DNA of 64,000 nucleotides from Acidobacteriota bacterium (lineage in GTDB: Bacteria > Acidobacteriota > Vicinamibacteria > Vicinamibacterales > UBA2999): positions 1-64,000 of the forward strand of contig JAKFYH010000008.1 of the NCBI GenBank assembly GCA_021730945.1, written 5' to 3'. Within the stretch, counting starts at the first letter, position 1. Each line of letters begins with the position of its first letter. A model generated the notes under the pieces. The model made no database searches. It had not been told where the DNA came from and worked only from the letters and a program-made list of their open reading frames with translations. Of the stretch, positions 14,717-45,434 are shown in pieces. A program made the position numbers and the translations under genes.

Positions 14717-17704
14717 ATGAAGCGTTCATTCATGCTGTTCGCCCTGGCGGCGATAATCTCGGGACTCGTCACGCAGGCACAGCAGCGGCCGATCGCCCGT
14801 CGAGCCAGCGCCGCGGCGGCGCCTGCCAGTTCCATTGAAGTCACCGTTCACGAGGGCACCTCGATGTCGGTGGCGCTCTCGCCCGATGGCCGGACGATCG
14901 CCGCCGACATGCAGGGCAGCATCTGGACCCTGCCGGCCACCGGCGGCGCCATGACGCGCATTACCGACGTCTTCAACGACGCGCGCCAGCCGATGTGGTC
15001 GCCGGATGGCCGCACCATCACGTTCTTTGCCTACCGCGACGGCGGTTACGACATCTGGTCGATCAATCCCGACGGCACCGGCCAGCGCAAGCTCACGTGG
15101 GGCACCTTTGACGATCGCGAGCCGATCTGGTCGCACGACGGCACCCGCGTCGCCTTCTCGTCGGACCGCGGCAACCCGCTGGGCAGTGACTACAACATCT
15201 GGATGCTCGACACGCGGTCGGGCGCCATCACCCAGGTGACCAAGGGGCCGAGCGAAGATTTCATGCCCACCTGGTCGGCCGACGACACCGAGATCGCGTT
15301 TGCCTCGTCGCGCGACAGCTACGACGGTGTGTGGGTGGTCAACGTCGCCACCGGTGCCGAGCGCAAGGTGCGCACCGTCACGGGGGCGCGGGTGGACGCG
15401 CCGTCGTGGGGACCGGGCGGCCAGTTGCTCTATCACGTGACCGCCGGCAACCAGACCCGCTACGAACTGGACGGCAAGCCCGTAACGGGCGCCGAGAACG
15501 TGTTTGCGTTCCGGGCGTCGTGGGCATCGGCGTCGGAGTTCCTGTATGTGTCCGACGGCCGGATTCGCAAGCGCTCGGTGGCGGGTCTGCCGATGCAGAC
15601 GGTGGAGTTCACCGCGGCCATGCAGGTGACGCGCCCGCAGTACACCCGCCGGGTCCGCGACTTTACGTCGACCGCGCCGCGCAAAGCGCTTGGCATCGTG
15701 CGGCCCGTGATCTCGCCCGACGGCACCCAGGTCGCGTTTGCCGCCGTCGGCGACATTTACGTGATGCCGATCGGCGGCGCGGCTGTGAACGTGACCCGCG
15801 ACGAAGCGCTCGATACCGACCCGTCGTGGTCGCCCGATGGCTCATCGCTGGTCTACTCGTCGGACAAGGACAGCGAGCACTTGCAGTTGTGGGTTCGCGA
15901 TCTGAAGAGCGGGCAGAGCCGCAAGGTGACCAATCTCGCCACCCAGCCGCAGGGCGCGTCGTTCTCTCCCGACGGCAAGCGGATCGCCTTCTTCAACGTC
16001 GACGGGATGTGGCGGGTGGCCGAGATGTCGATTCTCGATCTCGACAGCGGCCGCGTCACCAGGATTCACGAGTCGCTGCCGCAGCCCGGCACGCCCACCT
16101 GGTCGCCCGACGGCCGCCGCATCGCGCTGGCCGGCATCGCGCCGATGACCGTGCGATTCCGCGAGGGCACCAACCAGGTGCAGACCATGTCGGCGTCGGG
16201 CGGCGACGTGAAGTGGTACGCGCCGATCCCGATGCTGTCGATCGATTCCCGTGGCGGTGGCGGGCCGGTGTGGTCGCCCGATGGGACCAAGATGGCGGCG
16301 ATCTATGAAGGGGTGTTGGCGGTGTGGCCGGTGGCGGCGAGCGGCGAACCGCTGGGGCCGCCGCGGCGGGTGACGTCGGAAAGCGCCCACGCACCCAGCT
16401 GGCAGGGCGACTCGCGCCACATCCTCTACCAGTCCCTCGACCAGTTGCGCATCGTCGACATCGAGACCGGCGAGACCCGCACCGTGCCGCTCGCCCTGAC
16501 CTGGACCCCGGCGATTCCCAGGACCCGCACCGTGATTCACGCCGGCCGGCTGCTCGACATGAAGAGCGCGACGCCGCGCACCGACGTCGACATCACGGTG
16601 GTGGGGAACAAGATTGTGTCGGTCGTGCCGCATGCGGGCGCCAATCATGTCAAGGCGGAAGTCGTGGACGCCTCGAACCTGACCGTCATGCCCGGCCTGG
16701 TGGAGTTTCACTCGCACCTGCAGAAGGACTTCGGCGCGGCCCAGGGGCGCGCCTGGCTGGCGTTCGGCGTCACCACCGTGCGCAGTCCGGGCAATACACC
16801 CTACGAGGCGGTCGAGGATCGCGAGGCCAACGAGGCGGGCGTGCGGCCCGGCCCGCGCGTGTATGGCACCGGCTACCTGATGGAGTGGAACCGCGTCTAT
16901 TACAAGATGGGCATCGCCATCTCGAATGTGGCCCAGTTCGAGATGGAGTTGCAGCGCGCGAAGGTGCTCGAGCACGACCTGATTAAGAGCTACGTGCGGT
17001 TGCCGGATCTGCAGCAGAAGCGCATGGTCGAGTTCGCGCACAGTATCGGCGTGCCGGTGGCGACCCATGAGATCTGGCCGGCGGCGTTGATTGGTGTCGA
17101 CAATACCGAGCACACCGCGGCGACCAGCCGCCGGGGTTACTCGCCCAAGCAGGCCACGCTGCAGACCGCCTACGAAGATGTGGTGCAGCTGTTTGGCCAG
17201 AGCCAGCGAATCTTCTGCCCGATGATTTCCGGCGGCGGCGCCCGCAAGCTGTTCGTGGACGATGCGGCGTTGAAGCTGGATCGGCGTTTCACGCTCTACC
17301 CGGCCTGGATGCAGCGCCAGGTGGCAGCGCAGCCCAACGCGCCGGCCCCGAGCGGCGGCGTCGATCCCACTGGCGGCCACGGCAAGATGGTGATCGACAT
17401 CATGAAGGCTGGCGGCCTGGTGGTGGCCGGCACCGATACGCCCAATGCCATCAACCTCCACGGCGAGTTGATGTCCTACCGCCTGGCCGGCATGGCGCCG
17501 TTTGATGTCCTCAAGACCGCGACGGTGAATCCCGCCCGGGCGCTGGGGCTCGAGGCTGGAACGATCGAAGCCGGCAAGCTCGCCGACATCATCATGATCG
17601 ACGGCGATCCGCTCGAGAACATCGCCAACACCGTCAAGGTGCGCAAGGTGATGGCCAACGGACGGATGCACGACGTCGCGCAACTCGTCGCGACGAAGCA
17701 GTAG
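14717..17704 (+). CDS. Exported beta-propeller/amidohydrolase fusion protein
   Basis: A 995-residue protein with a signal peptide (residues 1-21, ending near TQAQQ). Residues about 35-600 form TolB/PD40-like propeller repeats with many S-P-D-G blades. The C-terminal 390 residues are an amidohydrolase: TVMPGLVEFHSHLQ gives H-x-H, KSYVRL a candidate bridging Lys, VATHEIWPA and NTEHTAA the metal His, and VVAGTDTPN the Asp. LADIIMIDGDPLENI is the usual end strand. Such fusions are known in Acidobacteria and Bacteroidetes; the substrate is unknown. It lies between gltX and rlmB and probably has its own promoter. Confidence 0.88.
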   Translation: MKRSFMLFALAAIISGLVTQAQQRPIARRASAAAAPASSIEVTVHEGTSMSVALSPDGRTIAADMQGSIWTLPATGGAMTRITDVFNDARQPMWSPDGRTITFFAYRDGGYDIWSINPDGTGQRKLTWGTFDDREPIWSHDGTRVAFSSDRGNPLGSDYNIWMLDTRSGAITQVTKGPSEDFMPTWSADDTEIAFASSRDSYDGVWVVNVATGAERKVRTVTGARVDAPSWGPGGQLLYHVTAGNQTRYELDGKPVTGAENVFAFRASWASASEFLYVSDGRIRKRSVAGLPMQTVEFTAAMQVTRPQYTRRVRDFTSTAPRKALGIVRPVISPDGTQVAFAAVGDIYVMPIGGAAVNVTRDEALDTDPSWSPDGSSLVYSSDKDSEHLQLWVRDLKSGQSRKVTNLATQPQGASFSPDGKRIAFFNVDGMWRVAEMSILDLDSGRVTRIHESLPQPGTPTWSPDGRRIALAGIAPMTVRFREGTNQVQTMSASGGDVKWYAPIPMLSIDSRGGGGPVWSPDGTKMAAIYEGVLAVWPVAASGEPLGPPRRVTSESAHAPSWQGDSRHILYQSLDQLRIVDIETGETRTVPLALTWTPAIPRTRTVIHAGRLLDMKSATPRTDVDITVVGNKIVSVVPHAGANHVKAEVVDASNLTVMPGLVEFHSHLQKDFGAAQGRAWLAFGVTTVRSPGNTPYEAVEDREANEAGVRPGPRVYGTGYLMEWNRVYYKMGIAISNVAQFEMELQRAKVLEHDLIKSYVRLPDLQQKRMVEFAHSIGVPVATHEIWPAALIGVDNTEHTAATSRRGYSPKQATLQTAYEDVVQLFGQSQRIFCPMISGGGARKLFVDDAALKLDRRFTLYPAWMQRQVAAQPNAPAPSGGVDPTGGHGKMVIDIMKAGGLVVAGTDTPNAINLHGELMSYRLAGMAPFDVLKTATVNPARALGLEAGTIEAGKLADIIMIDGDPLENIANTVKVRKVMANGRMHDVAQLVATKQ

Positions 17705-17718
17705 AATTAGAGGAGGCT

Positions 17719-17774
17719 AGGAGATCAGGAGCAATGTTTTTTTGAAATGCCTGCTCCTGCTCTCTTGATCTCCT
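17719..17774. repeat. Imperfect inverted repeat between amidohydrolase and rlmB
   Basis: AGGAGATCA (17719-17727) pairs with TGATCTCCT (17766-17774). CAGGAGCA (17726-17733) pairs with TGCTCCTG (17752-17759). Seven Ts (17737-17743) lie in the loop. The composition (GGAGATCAGGAG) is again a short-period repeat. It might terminate or attenuate transcription, but the T-run is on the loop side, so a terminator role is doubtful. Confidence 0.6.
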
Positions 17775-17794
17775 GTTGAGTCCCCTGAACCACC

Positions 17795-18532
17795 ATGATC
17801 ATCTACGGGATTAACCCGGTCGCCGAGGCGATCAAGAGCGGTCGCGTGAAGGAAATTCGCGTCGCCGAGCGGTCTGATGAGCGCCTCCAGCGTCTCCTGG
17901 ACGATGCGGCGCATCACGGCGTGCGCGTCCGGCGGGTGCCGCGGGACGTGCTCGACAACGAAGCGCGCGGCGGGTCCCACCAGGGGGTGGTCGCCGATGT
18001 CGCCAAGCGCGCCGAGGTCACGCTGGACGACCTGGCCAGCGGCGCTGATGGTCCGCCGTTGATCGTGGTCCTGGACGAGGTTGAGGATCCCCAGAACGTG
18101 GGTGCCATTCTGCGCACCGTGGATGCGTCGGGCGCGACCGGGGTGGTCCGGCAGACCCGCCGGGCGGCTGCCCTCGACGGGGCGGCGGCGAAGGCCTCGG
18201 CCGGGGCCGTCAACTACGTGCCGGTGGCCGACGTCGTCAATATCGCCCGTTCGCTCGAGGAACTAAAAAAAGCCGGGGTCTGGACCCTGGGACTCGACGC
18301 CGATGCGGAAATGTCTTACTATGAATGGGATCTCACCCTTCCGACGGCGCTGGTTGTAGGCGCCGAGGGTCACGGGCTGCGACGGCTTGTGAGGGAACGG
18401 TGCGACCAGGTGGTCAGCATTCCCATGCTTGGCCATGTGGGCAGTCTAAATGTTTCGGCCGCCACGGCCATCGTCTTGTATGAGGCGGTGAGACAAAGGC
18501 GGAGCCGGAGCCGGGGGAGGCCAGAATCCTGA
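17795..18532 (+). CDS. rlmB: 23S rRNA 2'-O-methyltransferase RlmB (TrmH/SpoU family)
   Basis: SPOUT methyltransferase expected to modify 23S rRNA G2251. The N-terminal substrate-binding domain starts MIIYGINPVAEAIKSGRVKEI. The SpoU motifs are VLDEVEDPQNVGAILRTVDASGATG, LVVGAEGHGLRRLVRERCD and IPMLGHVGSLNVSAATAIVLYEA, the last two forming the trefoil-knot SAM site. The protein has 245 residues, normal. Its place between gltX and rpmG/secE mirrors B. subtilis. The initiating ATG has no strong Shine-Dalgarno. Confidence 0.95.
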   Translation: MIIYGINPVAEAIKSGRVKEIRVAERSDERLQRLLDDAAHHGVRVRRVPRDVLDNEARGGSHQGVVADVAKRAEVTLDDLASGADGPPLIVVLDEVEDPQNVGAILRTVDASGATGVVRQTRRAAALDGAAAKASAGAVNYVPVADVVNIARSLEELKKAGVWTLGLDADAEMSYYEWDLTLPTALVVGAEGHGLRRLVRERCDQVVSIPMLGHVGSLNVSAATAIVLYEAVRQRRSRSRGRPES

Positions 18533-39316: not shown

Positions 39317-40798
39317 TTGCTGCGCGTAGTTGCCGCGGCGCTGGCACTGGTTGCCTTTCAACACCCGGCCGCCCCGTGGCAGCCATCCTTCGAGCGGGTT
39401 CAGCCAGAGCTGTTTGCTACACCAGGAGGCCAGGCCAGCGCCTGGGCCGACGCCGATGGTGATGGCGACCTCGATTACTTCGTGGCCTTCCGCGGCCGGC
39501 CCAACCGCTTCTATCGCAACGACCACGGCACCTTCCGCGATGTCGCGGCCGAAGTGGGCCTGGCCGACAACCTTGAGACCCGCGCGGTGGCGTGGGGCGA
39601 TTTCGATGCCGACGGCGATCCCGATCTCTACATCGGTTTTGCCGATCCCAAGGTGCCGGCCAAGGTCTACCGGAACGACGTGAACGGCACCCGGTTCGTC
39701 GATGTGGCCGCCGCCATTGGCGTGAACCTGCGAGGCGTGGCCAGGCAGCCGGCGTGGGTGGACTACGACGGCGATGGCGACCTCGATCTGTTCGCGGCCT
39801 TTCGGGATGTGGCGAATAAGCTCCTGCGCAATGACCGGGGCAAGTTCGTGGATGTGACGGCGGCGTCCGGCATCGGCGATACCCGCAAGACTGTCAGCGG
39901 CGTGTGGTGGGATTTTGATTTGGATGGCGACCTCGACCTGTTCGTCGCCAATCAGGAGGGCGAAGCCAACGGCCTGTATCGCCAGAACCGCGGCCGCTTC
40001 GAGGATGTTGCCGCCGCCATGGGCGTGGCCGGCATACCACGTCCGGCCGCCGACGGCGGTGTCGGCCCCAGCGTCGCTGACTTCGATCTCGACGGCGACC
40101 TGGATCTGTTCGTGGCCAACTACGGCCCGAGCGCCCTCTATCGCAACGAAGCGGGGCAGGGCTTTACCGAGGTGTCAAAGGCCAGCGGGATCGACTTGAA
40201 CGGTCACGGCGTGACGTCGGCGTGGGGTGACCTCAACAACGATGGCCGGCCGGAGCTGTATGTCGGCAACTTCATCGCCGGGCAGCCGCTCTATCGGGAC
40301 GCGTTGTTCGTCAACCGCGGGACGACGGACGGCGTCTGGGGTTTCGCCGAGGCGCTCCCCGACGTGATCTTGAAACACGATGCCACGCACGGCGTGCAGT
40401 TTGTCGACTTCGACGGCGACGGCCGCCTCGACTTGTCGCTGACGAACAACGATCCCGAAGGCGGCGGTCATCCGCTGCTTCGTAACATCGCCACCACGCT
40501 GGGCCGCGGCTTCTTTGTTGAGGTGACCGACGAGGCCGGACACCTGACACGGGCGGGGAGCGAGGTGCGGGTGTTCCAGCCCCGCACGCGGCAACTGCTG
40601 GCCTCGGCGCTGGTTGATGCCGGCAGCGGTTACTGTTCGCAGAACGCCGTGCCCTCACACCTCGGTGTCCCGGCCACGTGGGCTGGCCGTGTCGATGTCG
40701 AGGTGACCACGGTTGTGCAAGGGCAGCGTCGCATCACCTCGATCAAGGGTGTCGCCCCCGCCGCTCATACCCGCCGCCCGTTGCGCGTTACGCCCTGA
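39317..40798 (+). CDS. CRTAC1/UnbV family FG-GAP repeat protein
   Basis: 493 residues, exported (signal peptide 1-15). Seven or so VCBS/FG-GAP calcium-binding repeats carry D-x-D-x-D-G/D motifs, for example DADGDGDLDYF, DFDADGDPDLY and DFDLDGDLDLF. The C-terminal ASPIC/UnbV domain has LVDAGSGYCSQNAVPSHLGV. The fold suggests a beta-propeller in adhesion or matrix binding; the function is unknown. It starts with TTG at 39317, after GGGGAGG ending at 39312. It ends directly against the convergent gene with no spacer. Confidence 0.88.
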   Translation: MLRVVAAALALVAFQHPAAPWQPSFERVQPELFATPGGQASAWADADGDGDLDYFVAFRGRPNRFYRNDHGTFRDVAAEVGLADNLETRAVAWGDFDADGDPDLYIGFADPKVPAKVYRNDVNGTRFVDVAAAIGVNLRGVARQPAWVDYDGDGDLDLFAAFRDVANKLLRNDRGKFVDVTAASGIGDTRKTVSGVWWDFDLDGDLDLFVANQEGEANGLYRQNRGRFEDVAAAMGVAGIPRPAADGGVGPSVADFDLDGDLDLFVANYGPSALYRNEAGQGFTEVSKASGIDLNGHGVTSAWGDLNNDGRPELYVGNFIAGQPLYRDALFVNRGTTDGVWGFAEALPDVILKHDATHGVQFVDFDGDGRLDLSLTNNDPEGGGHPLLRNIATTLGRGFFVEVTDEAGHLTRAGSEVRVFQPRTRQLLASALVDAGSGYCSQNAVPSHLGVPATWAGRVDVEVTTVVQGQRRITSIKGVAPAAHTRRPLRVTP

Positions 40799-42814
40799 TC
40801 AGGGACAGCTCACCGGGATCGAGACCGAGACTGTCTCCAACTGCTGCAAAGAAACCGGCACGAAGAACACGACCGAGGTCTGGGTGGGGCACGAGGCCAC
40901 TGTCGCCCTCAGCGACACGGTGCCGGTCGTACCCCCCAACGCCGGCGCGGTCAAGGTGCCGGTGAAAATGCTGGGCAGTGTTTGGACGCCAATCGATGAA
41001 CCTGCTCGCGCGGCCAGGATGGTGCCGGCCTGAACGTTGATTGCCCCGGTGCAGCTGCGGAAGTTACTGGTCGAGTTCGCGGCTGTGCAGCTGAATTGGC
41101 CCAGGCCGACCGTCGACGGTCTGTTGCTGGTGGGCGTGGGATTGCCAGTGGTGGTGGTGGTGGTGGTGAACGAGTCGGTCTCCTCAGCGAGCAGCTGCGC
41201 CTGTTGGTAGACATAGGCGCCGCCAACGATGCCGCCGACCAGTGCGGTCGTCAACCCGAGGATCTTGCCCATGGATGGACCGGCCGGTGGCGGTGTCACC
41301 TGAGTCGGGGCCTGCGTGGGAGCGTTCTGCTCCTCGGTCTTCTGCTTTTCCTCTTTCTTCTCGCAGTCTTCCGCTTCCTTCAGGTCCTTCTGGAAGTCAG
41401 CGTCAAGGGTCTTGGGCGATGGATTGGTAAACGCCGGCGAACATGACTGGGCTGCCGCCTTCGCGACCTTGCTGCCGCACGAGGATGTCTTCTCTGGGGG
41501 CGGCGGAATGTCGAGGAAGACCTCGAGTTCGAGCTGATTCAGGGTGACCGACTTTTCGATCACTTTCCCGTTGCTCGTGACCGCGCGCACCAACAGGTCG
41601 CCGACCGGGAGCTTATCGAGCTTGCTGGGAAAGATCGGTCCGCCTTCCAAGCCAGGACCCGAGACGGTCTCGCAACTGAGCTGATGCAGTGTTTCGAGAC
41701 CGCGTCGCGTTGGCTTCGCCCACACCGAGACTTGCACGTCCCCCTGAAGTGGCCCGGTGCGGCGCAGGTGCGTGATGACCGTGCCGTACAGTGTGAAATC
41801 GTCCGGCGACGTGTTAGTTGGTTGCCCAGACGAGTTGTAGTCGAATTTGAGTCGTTCGGGCTCGTAGGGCGGCACGTCGCTCGCCAGGGACGCGAACACC
41901 GCAGTGTGCGCCCTCGGTAGACTGGGCGTGCTGTTGGTCGGCCAGACTCGACCGATGTACTGGCTGGCCGTCGACGTCATTCGATTGAGCCGCATCAGCC
42001 GGTCCCTGACCGAATACATGCCCTGAGCCGAGCAGTCACTTGGGCGCTGGCGCGGTGACATCGCGGCCCTGAATCGCTTCAGGGCGTCAACCGTCTTCTG
42101 GATCATGAGATTGGTCTGGTCGGGGCGATGGCTCAGAAAGTCCGTGGTCGCCCCCATCGGTAGCGTAGGGTCTGCGAGGAGGTCCAGTGCCGCCAGGCTG
42201 ACGTCGGGAACGGCGGCTTGTGGCGCACCGGTGCCCGTTTGCCGCGCCAGCTCGTCCAGCGCCCGTTGACTCGCTGCCGGGGCAGCCCGCAGCATGGCCT
42301 CGGCTCCCGCCGCCGCGCTCACCCAATGGCCACCCGCGCTCGCATAACCAGCGTGGGACGGCTCATCCTGGATAAAGTGCAGCAGGACGCCTGGATTCTT
42401 CATGTCCGTCGCGTTCTTCCAAAGAGCCGCTTCCTGCAGTGCGATCTCCGCCATGGCTGTCGCTTCGGTGCGTGCTGGCGCACGGGCATCCCTGAAGGCA
42501 TGAAAGGCCACTCTCGGCGCTTGCGCGCGATCGGAGATCGCCTCTCGCAGCAGCGGACCAAATCCGCCCGCCACCACGGCCGCCCCGGTGTAAAGCTCGT
42601 TGATCGCCTGGACGGGCTCAGTGGCACGCGCATAGTCGACCGACAGGTTGGCGCTGGCCATGCGGTAGGCCTGCAGTGGTGTATACCCGCATTCGCGCGC
42701 CATGTAGTAGGTGAAGGCGTAGTGGGTGTCGTCGTAAAAAGCAGCCGTCCACTGCGTAGTGCCGGCAATAAGCGTGGCGACCAGCGCCCCGCACAGTAAT
42801 CGACGAACTCTCAT
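40799..42814 (-). CDS. Large exported protein with zinc-phospholipase-C-like N-terminus
   Basis: 671 residues, no confident family. A signal peptide (1-24) is followed by a helical domain with DDTHYAFTYYMARECGY, ANLSVDYARA and LLHFIQDEPSHAGY plus GGHW. These His/Asp positions resemble the zinc PLC/DUF6765-type fold. Then come a Cys-containing linker (SSCGSKVAKAAAQSC), a charged stretch (KDLKEAEDCEKKEEKQKTEE), a hydrophobic segment (ILGLTTALVGGIVGGAYVY), a run of seven Thr and a C-terminal beta-rich domain with four Cys. The start overlaps the stop of the TPR/DUF2846 gene (ATGA). No function can be assigned. Confidence 0.7.
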   Translation of the reverse strand: MRVRRLLCGALVATLIAGTTQWTAAFYDDTHYAFTYYMARECGYTPLQAYRMASANLSVDYARATEPVQAINELYTGAAVVAGGFGPLLREAISDRAQAPRVAFHAFRDARAPARTEATAMAEIALQEAALWKNATDMKNPGVLLHFIQDEPSHAGYASAGGHWVSAAAGAEAMLRAAPAASQRALDELARQTGTGAPQAAVPDVSLAALDLLADPTLPMGATTDFLSHRPDQTNLMIQKTVDALKRFRAAMSPRQRPSDCSAQGMYSVRDRLMRLNRMTSTASQYIGRVWPTNSTPSLPRAHTAVFASLASDVPPYEPERLKFDYNSSGQPTNTSPDDFTLYGTVITHLRRTGPLQGDVQVSVWAKPTRRGLETLHQLSCETVSGPGLEGGPIFPSKLDKLPVGDLLVRAVTSNGKVIEKSVTLNQLELEVFLDIPPPPEKTSSCGSKVAKAAAQSCSPAFTNPSPKTLDADFQKDLKEAEDCEKKEEKQKTEEQNAPTQAPTQVTPPPAGPSMGKILGLTTALVGGIVGGAYVYQQAQLLAEETDSFTTTTTTTGNPTPTSNRPSTVGLGQFSCTAANSTSNFRSCTGAINVQAGTILAARAGSSIGVQTLPSIFTGTLTAPALGGTTGTVSLRATVASCPTQTSVVFFVPVSLQQLETVSVSIPVSCP
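41148..41168. repeat. Seven-copy GTG trinucleotide repeat in coding sequence
   Basis: Seven GTG triplets on the plus strand encode seven consecutive Thr in the minus-strand gene, just after its hydrophobic segment. Length changes would keep the frame and only alter the linker. Confidence 0.8.
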
Positions 42815-44058
42815 CTCCGCCTCCCTGGTGTCGGTCGAGTGGTGACGGCGGCGCATTCGGCGGCGAACGTGTTCCGCGCATCGTTGACTTTCATTCCCTG
42901 TGCTCGCATCTCGGTCTGCGCCGCCTCGGTGCTGATCAGCCGCAGTTCCGGGCCCTGGGCAAACTGAAAGTGCCCTTCCAGGGATGCCCGGTAGTGGTAC
43001 TCACGCCCCGCTTCGACGTCGGCGGCGATCTGGTGATTGCGGAACTTGAGCGAGTGCGAGCCCACAGCTGCCTTCAGCACGACGTACCGGTTATTCTGGA
43101 GTTTGGCCACCTTGACGCCGTTGCACTGGACCGTTTGCCACTTACCGCCGCGTTGCTGCTCCGGCCAGTAGATGTAGATCAGCGCCGGGCCAACCGGTGT
43201 GGCCGCCGCTGGCGCGCTCGGATCCGTCGCCGTGTCGCGTGGCGACGCGCGTGCCGCTCTGGCCGCGTAGCCTTGCGGGTCAGCCAACCGATAGAGGTTA
43301 AGGTTCGCCAACGCTTCGTCGCCACGCTGGAGCCGTTGCAGGAGCGTCGCGAACCTGAAGGTGATCTCACCCGACCAGGGCGCAAGACGGATCGCCCGGC
43401 GCAATTCGGCCACCGCCTGTTCCGAACCGGCACCGGGGCCACCGCCAAGAATCGCCTCGGCATCCAACAGGTCCTGGGCTCGTGCCGCATGGTCGCGCGC
43501 CTGCGGCGGAATGGCGGGAGCGGCTGGTAACTTCGGGACCAGTTTGATAATCCGTTCTCGCAGGCGCTGGTCGACGGCGGGGTCCCGCGGTTCCGGAAGG
43601 TCGTGATACGCCTTCAAGTAAGAATCAAAAGCGAGTTGAAAGTTGCCGACCCGGTCGGCTGTGTCGCCGGTGGCCTCTGCACTTGGGGCCCCCGAGGGGC
43701 GAACTTCGTCGAACAACGCAACCACGGCGGTCGAGAGGCCGTTGGTGGCGACGTTCGGGTCGGACTTGAGGGCCAACAGCACTGCCGCCCTGGCCCGTTC
43801 CAATTGTTCCAGACCGAGGTAGGCCTGGGCCCGAAAGGCGTGGGCACGCCCGGCAATCGGCGCGTCCTCTGGGCGCGTGGATGACTGGGTGACCACCGCA
43901 TTAAGCGTCACGATTGCGGCGAAGAAGTCGCCCGCTCGCACCTGGCCGATACCGGTCTCGAGACCGGCGGTGGTGGGCGGAGCCTGGGCCGAGACCAGGG
44001 ACGAAACACAAAGCACGCAGGCCACAATGACGCCGGTCACACGCGCGTTGGCAAACAT
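42811..44058 (-). CDS. Exported TPR protein with DUF2846 domain
   Basis: 415 residues. A signal peptide (1-24, LVSAQ) is followed by tetratricopeptide-like helices (about 30-270) and a C-terminal DUF2846-type beta domain: ALIYIYWPEQQRGGKWQTV, CNGVKVAKLQNNRYVVL and VGSHSLKF, ending AGREYHYRASLEGHFQF. DUF2846 proteins are usually lipoproteins of unknown role. ATG 44058 is chosen by the signal peptide; a longer TTG start (44100) is possible. It overlaps the downstream gene by four bases and is divergent from the HTH-sensor gene 83 bases away. Confidence 0.78.
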   Translation of the reverse strand: MFANARVTGVIVACVLCVSSLVSAQAPPTTAGLETGIGQVRAGDFFAAIVTLNAVVTQSSTRPEDAPIAGRAHAFRAQAYLGLEQLERARAAVLLALKSDPNVATNGLSTAVVALFDEVRPSGAPSAEATGDTADRVGNFQLAFDSYLKAYHDLPEPRDPAVDQRLRERIIKLVPKLPAAPAIPPQARDHAARAQDLLDAEAILGGGPGAGSEQAVAELRRAIRLAPWSGEITFRFATLLQRLQRGDEALANLNLYRLADPQGYAARAARASPRDTATDPSAPAAATPVGPALIYIYWPEQQRGGKWQTVQCNGVKVAKLQNNRYVVLKAAVGSHSLKFRNHQIAADVEAGREYHYRASLEGHFQFAQGPELRLISTEAAQTEMRAQGMKVNDARNTFAAECAAVTTRPTPGRRR

Positions 44059-44141
44059 GGCGGGAGCATGGCGCCGCCGCCGGCCCACCTCAACCGGCAA
44101 CTGCGCGCAACACCGCGCACGGGACCCGAATCCGAAGAATA

Positions 44142-45434
44142 ATGAGCCTCCCCATGAGCGAAGTGCCGGTTCCGCGTGAACGCCTCGATTCGTGGAAGGC
44201 TATTGCCGACTACCTGCAGCGAGACGTGGCCACCGCTCGGCGATGGGAAAAGGGCATGGGCCTGCCCGTCCACCGCGTGGCCGGGACCGGACGGTCGGTC
44301 TTCGCCTACACCTCGGAGATCGATACCTGGCTTGGCACCGCCAAACCAGGGCAGGCCGCGCCGGCGCTCGCTGGCCAGATCGAATCGACCTCACCTCCCA
44401 CTCGCCGTCCGTGGCTTGGCGTCGCCCTGGCTGTCGCGGTATTGGTCATGGTGGTGGGCCTCGTGGCCCGGTCGCGGTCGATCGAGCCAGGCGACCTTCG
44501 CGTTGAGGCGACCGGTGCGGGCGTGGTCGCCCGGGATGCGGCGGGGGTGGAGCAGTGGCGCTACCCGTTCCCGTCGACCTACAAGACCGATGTGCCGCGC
44601 GATCCCGTCCTGGTGACCGGCGGCGCCTCCGCGGGCGTCTACTTCGCGACCAGTTTCCGCGGCCGGCAGATGGAAGACCGCATCGAAAGCGGCGCGCTCA
44701 CGCTGCTCGATCTTCAGGGCCGCCCCCAGCGCTCGTTTACCTTTGACGACGAGGTCACGTTTCAGGGCCAGCGCTTCGGCGCACCGTGGGCGGTCTCTTC
44801 CTTCGCGGTGGATGAAGGCGTGACTCCGAATCAGATCGCCGTGGCCGCGCACCACTACACCTGGGATCCGGGCATCGTCACCGTCCTCGACGCCGACTGG
44901 CGGCGCCGCGGGACGTTCGTGCATGCCGGGTGGATCGAGGTGGTGCGATGGGTCGCCCCCGACCGCCTGGTGATCGGCGGCTTCTCGAACGCACACGATG
45001 GCGGCATGCTGGCGTTGTTGGATAGCAACGCGCTCGATGGGCAAGGCCCGGAGCCGGAGGGCAGCCGGCATCACTGCGATTCCTGCAGGACGGGCGGCGC
45101 CTTGCGCATGTTCGTGTTTCCGCGATCGGAGCTGAATCACGTGACTGCGTCACGATTCAATCGCGTACTGCTGAACACCGGCCCCAACCGCCTGTCAGTG
45201 CGCACGATTGAGATGCCGTCGGCCGACGGTGACGCCGACGCGGTTTATGAGTTCACGCCGGCGCTCGACCTCGTGAGTGCGCGGTTCAGCGACCGGTACT
45301 GGGAGTTGCATCGCTCATTGGAGACCGAAGGCCGGATCCGTCACACCCGCGACCAGTGTCCCGATCGCGATGGACCGCGACCGATTCGGATGTGGACACC
45401 GTCGAGCGGCTGGCTGCCGGTCACCGCGCCCTGA
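44142..45434 (+). CDS. HTH domain-membrane-beta-propeller sensor protein
   Basis: 430 residues. Residues 12-65 form a MerR/excisionase-like winged helix (RLDSWKAIADYLQRDVATARRWEKGMGLPVHRV, read in segments). A linker and one membrane helix follow (RPWLGVALAVAVLVMVVGLVA, about 90-110), then about 310 residues outside the membrane with propeller-like strands (LTLLDLQGRP, ITVLDADW type). There are three Cys, two of them in HHCDSCRTG. This looks like a one-component membrane-anchored regulator. It is divergent from the TPR/DUF2846 operon, a likely target. The start may be 44142 or ATG 44154; neither has a strong Shine-Dalgarno. Confidence 0.72.
   Translation: MSLPMSEVPVPRERLDSWKAIADYLQRDVATARRWEKGMGLPVHRVAGTGRSVFAYTSEIDTWLGTAKPGQAAPALAGQIESTSPPTRRPWLGVALAVAVLVMVVGLVARSRSIEPGDLRVEATGAGVVARDAAGVEQWRYPFPSTYKTDVPRDPVLVTGGASAGVYFATSFRGRQMEDRIESGALTLLDLQGRPQRSFTFDDEVTFQGQRFGAPWAVSSFAVDEGVTPNQIAVAAHHYTWDPGIVTVLDADWRRRGTFVHAGWIEVVRWVAPDRLVIGGFSNAHDGGMLALLDSNALDGQGPEPEGSRHHCDSCRTGGALRMFVFPRSELNHVTASRFNRVLLNTGPNRLSVRTIEMPSADGDADAVYEFTPALDLVSARFSDRYWELHRSLETEGRIRHTRDQCPDRDGPRPIRMWTPSSGWLPVTAP

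Follow-up and report, generated by a model that had tools for sequence, protein, structure and literature searches.

The cadBA operon adjoins cadC, and the winged helix-turn-helix (HTH) of the ToxR/CadC family is of the OmpR/PhoB type. CadC, a membrane-integrated one-component regulator of the ToxR/CadC type, controls the cadBA operon, and the DNA-binding domain of the family is a winged HTH (PMC5936718). ToxR-type membrane one-component regulators (PMC5936718; PMC5430869; PMC9214523) were taken as the working parallel for a locus in a 64,000-nucleotide stretch of DNA (the window) from contig 24 of a 4.7-Mb Acidobacteriota genome, G000. The locus comprises S, the gene of an HTH protein, T, encoding a TPR/DUF2846-like protein, and P, encoding an exported protein of 671 residues. 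We consider it probable that S acts as a one-component regulator in the membrane: through a 29-bp site in the S-T gap it would control T-P, and probably its own expression as well. Acidobacteria contain further units of S plus the site, the neighbouring exported protein being a different one each time, and T-P is the version found here.

S is predicted to resemble the ToxR/CadC proteins in having an N-terminal cytoplasmic HTH, one membrane helix and a C-terminal extracytoplasmic sensor, but differs from them in that its HTH is HTH_17/MerR-like rather than the winged helix of that family, its sensor is a predicted beta-propeller and its partners are exported proteins that vary by locus. The OmpR/PhoB-type winged HTH family was absent from the Pfam hits of S and of 18 aligned S HTHs, and because the DNA-binding domain differs we regard S as ToxR-like but outside the ToxR family. 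A second point of comparison is BldC, a MerR-like winged HTH protein that binds direct repeats and is a free protein of 68 residues (PMC5859096). The MerR-like winged HTH is a likeness to S, and a 10-bp direct repeat is one of the two symmetries that the S site may have; however, S has 430 residues and is predicted to be membrane-anchored and to carry a propeller, its sequence similarity to BldC is marginal (6amk, E 0.25), and its site may instead be an inverted repeat. A literature search that was scant on subscription papers recognised no work on the S family and none with DUF6765, the domain family to which the N-terminal region of P is related.

Predicted architecture of S

An AlphaFold2 model of S, built from an alignment of 27 full or nearly full S proteins, has a mean predicted local distance difference test score (pLDDT) of 87.9, with values above 90 across most of the propeller. 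The model consists of an HTH (residues about 14-66), a low-confidence linker (71-91), a helix (92-111) and then mostly beta structure to the end. Solved beta-propellers fill the VIA-align list for this model (Z 14.6-16.7 over 183-241 residues), and a Foldseek search gave a best E of 8.4e-6, with modest TM-scores of at most 0.38 over the whole 430 residues among the matches listed. The sensor domain matches solved propellers over most of its length and is predicted to have a beta-propeller fold, so that the combination of HTH, membrane helix and external propeller proposed in the initial annotation is borne out by the prediction. The stretch holding the cysteine pair of the propeller (Table 1) is missing from the second S gene of G000.

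HTH_17 was matched by 16 of the 18 aligned S HTHs and MerR_1 by nine, and the sole match of the window's own S HTH was a weak one to HTH_23 (E 0.032). Besides BldC, the PDB matches of the S HTH included terminase small subunits (E 0.003-0.03) and RacA (E 0.028). Designed Kelch proteins occupied the top rows of the same table and are not meaningful, being a repeated match to a 15-residue tail. An HTH match labelled ‘methylation-associated defence’ (E 0.037) was also set aside at 14.3 bits against a cut-off of 80.

The 29-bp site and the exported partners of S genes

The open reading frames (ORFs) of S, T and P are all open at the positions first assigned to them, in agreement with the initial annotation: S is divergent from T, the two being separated by exactly 83 bp (44059-44141), and an ATGA (42811-42814) is common to T and P. 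The same gap had been named as the interval to which the HTH might bind, and a recurrent 29-bp site is present there. First spotted by eye in upstream regions, this site has the consensus CTCAACCGGCAAATGCGGGCATTAGCGG plus one variable base and lies upstream of all 12 members of the clade of the window S; in a tree of 30 rows the 12 strong-site proteins form one clade with support of 100/100. Its distance from the start of the partner is 20-75 bp in eight of these 12 loci. Its symmetry scores are near-equal for an inverted repeat (4.9) and a 10-bp direct repeat (4.2). Folding of the intergenic strand was not notable (z -1.5), and a repeat search found no repeats in 44000-44200.

A first matrix made from eight sites was run on 34 S upstream regions and 215 control upstream regions. 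Six of the 26 S regions that had not contributed to the matrix beat the control maximum of 11.0 (29.7, 29.6, 18.1, 17.9, 12.3 and 11.7), the four highest having also been spotted by eye and the lowest (L156) having another best position in a refitted search; seven more reached p < 0.05. Outside the 12-member clade a weaker site is found, with a CAA-CAA-CA skeleton in many regions, as seen in an iterative and hence biased fit. A matrix of the 12 sites gave leave-one-out scores of 23.2-35.1, and over 506,587 bases from 30 loci, the majority selected because they contain an S gene, it produced 15 hits above 20, namely the 12 sites themselves, the site of an S gene split by an insertion in G026 (37.9) and two others near S genes. 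In the genome of G000 the exact pattern matches only upstream of its two S genes; these two matches arise by design, the pattern having been drawn from the sites, and the finding is the absence of other exact matches. When up to three mismatches were allowed, ten places matched in G000 versus one for the reversed pattern, the eight non-exact ones carrying two or three mismatches. Across 43 genomes of the same family there were seven matches with up to two mismatches. Six of them immediately precede an S gene, and five of these had contributed to the shape of the pattern; the seventh lies inside an ORF. The weaker pattern matches that were looked at are G026:C142, inside an ORF, G000:C20, near the beginning of a transporter-like ORF, and G007:C21, a genuine second site.

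The two additional strong copies stand before genes other than S. One (L009:16731-16759, G026:C183; score 26.9) is just ahead of an ORF at 16771-18087 that encodes a class-V aminotransferase with an Arg-Arg leader by eye, and class-V-type aminotransferase genes adjoin the S genes of L034 and L035 too. The other (L038:13826-13854, G007:C21; score 27.7) is a second strong site at its locus, between an OMP_b-brl_4 receptor-like gene and a Kelch gene of 1,387 residues, which are the next genes after S; this suggests extra S targets. We also observed a 22-mer partly like the S site, TGAACCGACAAnCGCGGGCATT, at G000:C20:49687-49708, where a transporter-like ORF begins, and at one place each in G001, G002, G003, G005, G007 and G008, thus in seven genomes of the genus.

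Partners were defined as opposite-strand ORFs with a signal-peptide-like start within 450 bp of S, by a crude home-made signal-peptide rule, and core S sites as those with a hidden Markov model score above 230, a cut set post hoc, and at least 400 bp upstream. Core S genes face a divergent signal-peptide ORF well above background: 24 of 33 core sites have one, whereas among other genes of these loci, used as controls, the figure is 32 of 245 (Fisher p = 2e-12). This agrees with the initial annotation's placing of a regulator beside exported genes. None of 13 distant S relatives has such an ORF, and 25 of all 50 S sites listed have a partner. The core count leaves out L061 (147 bp upstream), L066 (343 bp upstream), the insertion-split S at L009:11691, for which the rule gives no partner, and the contig-split S of L046, for which it gives one.

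Exported propellers of the Kelch, PD40 and NHL types with Ig-like domains are frequent among these partners. A Pfam scan of 27 first partner proteins (those of L055, L059, L069, L071 and L156, and the second gene of L057, being outside the scan) found Kelch repeats in ten, many of which also carry HYR, MBG or Big domains and the longest of which spans 2,879 residues within the DNA examined; others had PD40 (one), NHL (two), SBBP with ASH-type domains (one) or Laminin_G_3 (one). Eleven had no Pfam match at E 0.01, seven of which look by eye like lipoproteins with a Cys after the leader, and one more had only a weak match. The second gene at L052 encodes a Kelch protein as well, whereas none of these propeller or Ig-like domains was matched by the window's T or P. 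At the second S gene of G000 (L218:2886-4386, G000:C1), the divergent neighbours are two small lipoprotein-like ORFs and not T-P.

The window S belongs to a four-member set (support 95/85) in which the partners are T-P, a lipoprotein-like protein of 285 residues, an exported protein of 200 residues followed by a Big_2/BACON protein, and a Kelch protein of 1,202 residues. Four related S genes with unlike partners indicate, therefore, that regulator and site persist while the partners change. The recurrent unit is S with some exported gene, not the trio of S, T and P.

Proposed mechanism and alternative readings

In the mechanism that we favour, S would be anchored in the membrane with its MerR/excisionase-like HTH inside, a single helix, and the propeller outside, where it would bind or sense something. 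The HTH would bind the 29-bp site in the 83-bp gap, and site-bound S would switch the divergent T-P pair and probably regulate its own gene. That S activates is our guess, modelled on CadC and ToxR. The initial annotation had seen S as a regulator that senses outside the membrane and controls an exported system, a view that the predicted architecture, the exported partners and the site all support; its extension to a conserved trio did not hold.

Several points weigh against this mechanism. The sites of the first matrix were picked by eye, 13 of the 26 non-matrix upstream regions were indistinguishable from controls at p 0.05, and the strong form of the site is confined to the 12-member clade. 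For nine of the 33 core sites the automatic rule detects no divergent ORF with a signal peptide, although four of these nine look exported (the second site of L034 and L039 by eye; L042 and L059 with an ORF at 483-485 bp). The loci behind the partner statistics are not all independent, since they include same-genome members and close relatives, and the definition of core was fixed after the fact. Core S genes are also rare, occurring in eight of 396 sampled genomes of the phylum (G000, G005, G007, G026, G034, G125, G372 and G385). Lastly, at L049 and L053 a 90-residue LuxR-like ORF (by eye) separates the site from the exported ORF, the distances being 332 and 351 bp, so that the site may serve S or the intervening ORF alone.

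The last observation leads to the alternative that the site is the promoter or autoregulatory site of S itself, with T-P transcribed independently of it and adjacent only on account of how commonly exported genes occur as neighbours. In nine of the 12 loci the site ends 16-26 bp ahead of an S ATG, which speaks for this alternative, and L049 and L053 fit it too. It is nonetheless unlikely: exported divergent partners are strongly enriched, the strong copies in L009 and L038 precede other genes near S and not S, and in the window only 30 bp lie between the site and T.

A second alternative is that S, T and P form a dedicated conserved module in which P is a secreted enzyme of the zinc phospholipase type under the control of S, and we judge this very unlikely. 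The T/P overlap speaks for it, as do a His/Asp pattern common to P and two relatives and a locus in G005 (G005:C60) at which a T homologue with 43-44% identity to T directly precedes a gene with the layout of the P C-terminus. The latter is an exported-protein ORF of 401 residues whose likely ATG is 8 bp past the T stop, with a helical part, a Pro/Gly linker, a Gly-rich hydrophobic stretch and a C-terminal domain. No S was found within the 18 kb examined around this T homologue, however, and T is full length in only two of the 396 phylum genomes (matches in four, and in three of the 43 family genomes). Of the 43 family genomes, just the one that holds P gave a full-length match to it, with partial matches in four more; its N-terminal profile matched 11 of the 396, several via short pieces. 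In G026 a gene with the P C-terminal layout is one AraC-like ORF (by eye) away from the insertion-split S, with no T, and no second S beside a T was seen in the stretches examined. The three families, taken as one module in the initial annotation, thus fail to travel together: S is found with other partners, and a T-P-like pair in G005 without S. The enzyme part of this alternative also meets with P lacking a PDB match and an unusable fold model. That S acts instead on distant genes and has exported neighbours by coincidence is extremely unlikely: these loci do have a fair background of divergent signal-peptide ORFs, but the reading is opposed by the partner enrichment and by how nearly unique the site is within the genome.

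At the G005 locus (L041:3896-10415) the T homologue and the P-like gene are preceded by a TPR protein of 1,111 residues, which by eye looks CHAT-like, and by a possible sigma-factor ORF. In the split S gene of G026 (L009:12221-15472, G026:C183), about 3.2 kb with several ORFs separates the two parts, probably as the result of an insertion.

The T and P proteins and the distribution of S

T matched DUF2846 (PF11008) with an E of 3.3e-7 over 79 of 92 profile positions, a near miss of the gathering cut-off, and TPR_19 with an E of 2.7e-5; both domains assigned to T at the outset were therefore seen again, each under its Pfam cut-off. The remaining features of the locus are listed with S and the site in Table 1. 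Directly at the P stop ends a convergent gene (39317-40798) for an FG-GAP-like repeat protein (by eye) of 493 residues.

Table 1. Features of the S-T-P locus in window coordinates
Feature	Coordinates	Strand	Remarks
Putative S operator, CTCAACCGGCAACTGCGCGCAACACCGCG	44089-44117	+	In the divergent S-T gap; shared upstream site
S, putative one-component regulator, 430 residues	44142-45434	+	Alternative ATG at 44154; full-length relatives exist
S predicted cytoplasmic HTH, residues 14-64, HTH_17/MerR-like	44181-44333	+	Pfam matches of aligned HTHs
S predicted membrane helix, residues 92-111	44415-44474	+	Hydrophobic stretch and helix in model
S predicted external beta-propeller, residues about 115-430	44484-45431	+	Alignment, model and fold matches; C312-x-x-C315 nearly invariant in the alignment
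T, exported TPR protein with DUF2846-like C-terminal domain, 415 residues	42811-44058	-	Leading gene of the T-P pair, divergent from S
T DUF2846-like domain, residues 290-361	42976-43191	-	30.7 bits, Pfam cut-off 34.3
P, exported multidomain protein, 671 residues	40799-42814	-	ATGA overlap with T
P N-terminal region, residues 24-330, DUF6765-related	41825-42745	-	His/Asp common to P and two relatives
P C-terminal part, residues 440-671	40802-41497	-	Same layout in G005 and G026 genes; pairwise identity 20-29%

Enzymes of the zinc-dependent phospholipase C or S1-P1 nuclease type have a helical fold with clustered His/Asp metal ligands. In P, residues H31, H105, H146, D150, H154, H163 and D225 are common to two relatives, residues 146-157 read HFIQDEPSHAGY, and an HxxxDxxxH motif with other His/Asp positions is common to three sequences. 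DUF6765 (PF20551) matched the whole of P at 22.1 bits (E 1.3e-4) and the N-terminal part alone at 24.0 bits, spanning 43 of 325 profile positions, both below the gathering cut-off of 26.6 bits; all three aligned relatives match the family, with a best E of 1.5e-6. The sequence of P gave no convincing PDB match (best E 0.93), the N-terminal alignment gave none, and a structure of residues 25-330 predicted without relatives had a mean pLDDT of 38.7, unusable for a fold search. The label ‘phospholipase C-like’ given to P at the start therefore comes down to a sub-threshold DUF6765 match and a His/Asp pattern of three sequences, and is unproven. A scan of viral contigs found no relatives of the P N-terminus.

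The C-terminal layout of P is a charged segment, a Pro-rich linker, a hydrophobic helix-like stretch beginning near residue 532, a Thr run after it, which corresponds to the Thr-rich linker of the initial annotation, and a C-terminal domain. Homology of this part with the G005 and G026 genes is likely but weak at the sequence level. The N-terminal part recurs in G010 and G040 on other domains (PASTA-like by eye in G040) and the C-terminal layout recurs beside a T homologue, and for these reasons P appears from its sequence to be a mosaic of a DUF6765-related N-terminus and a T-associated C-terminal part.

A single-protein search (E <= 0.001) found S matches in 16 of the 43 family genomes, five of which (G002, G023, G025, G027 and G038) have the HTH or a short piece only. 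A profile search (E <= 1e-40) found S in 20 of the 396 phylum genomes, with copies undercounted as only four candidates per genome were scored; besides the eight genomes with core S, the remaining 12 hits are distant relatives without an exported partner. Named records with full-length S relatives are mostly metagenome-assembled genomes (MAGs) of Acidobacteria or Terriglobia. L048 and L051 are titled Acidimicrobiia and Cyanobacteria, yet their S genes group with those of Acidobacteria MAGs, and they are possibly mislabelled.

Tentatively, S and its site may form a reusable sensor-promoter cassette in Acidobacteria, in which regulator and operator stay while the exported protein behind them is swapped, the external propeller sensor thus gating a fast-changing surface and secreted repertoire; many partners are propellers and may bind the same class of target as the S sensor. 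Acidobacteria are, to our knowledge, a phylum with few worked-out sensory switches. If the proposed mechanism is true, it would provide a testable regulator, a binding site and a target-gene set for large exported proteins of Acidobacteria, with the site predicting further targets, and would represent a membrane one-component design that pairs a MerR-like DNA-binding domain with a propeller sensor. Close sister units with unrelated partners would then allow one to ask whether a DNA site is kept while the gene that it controls is swapped.

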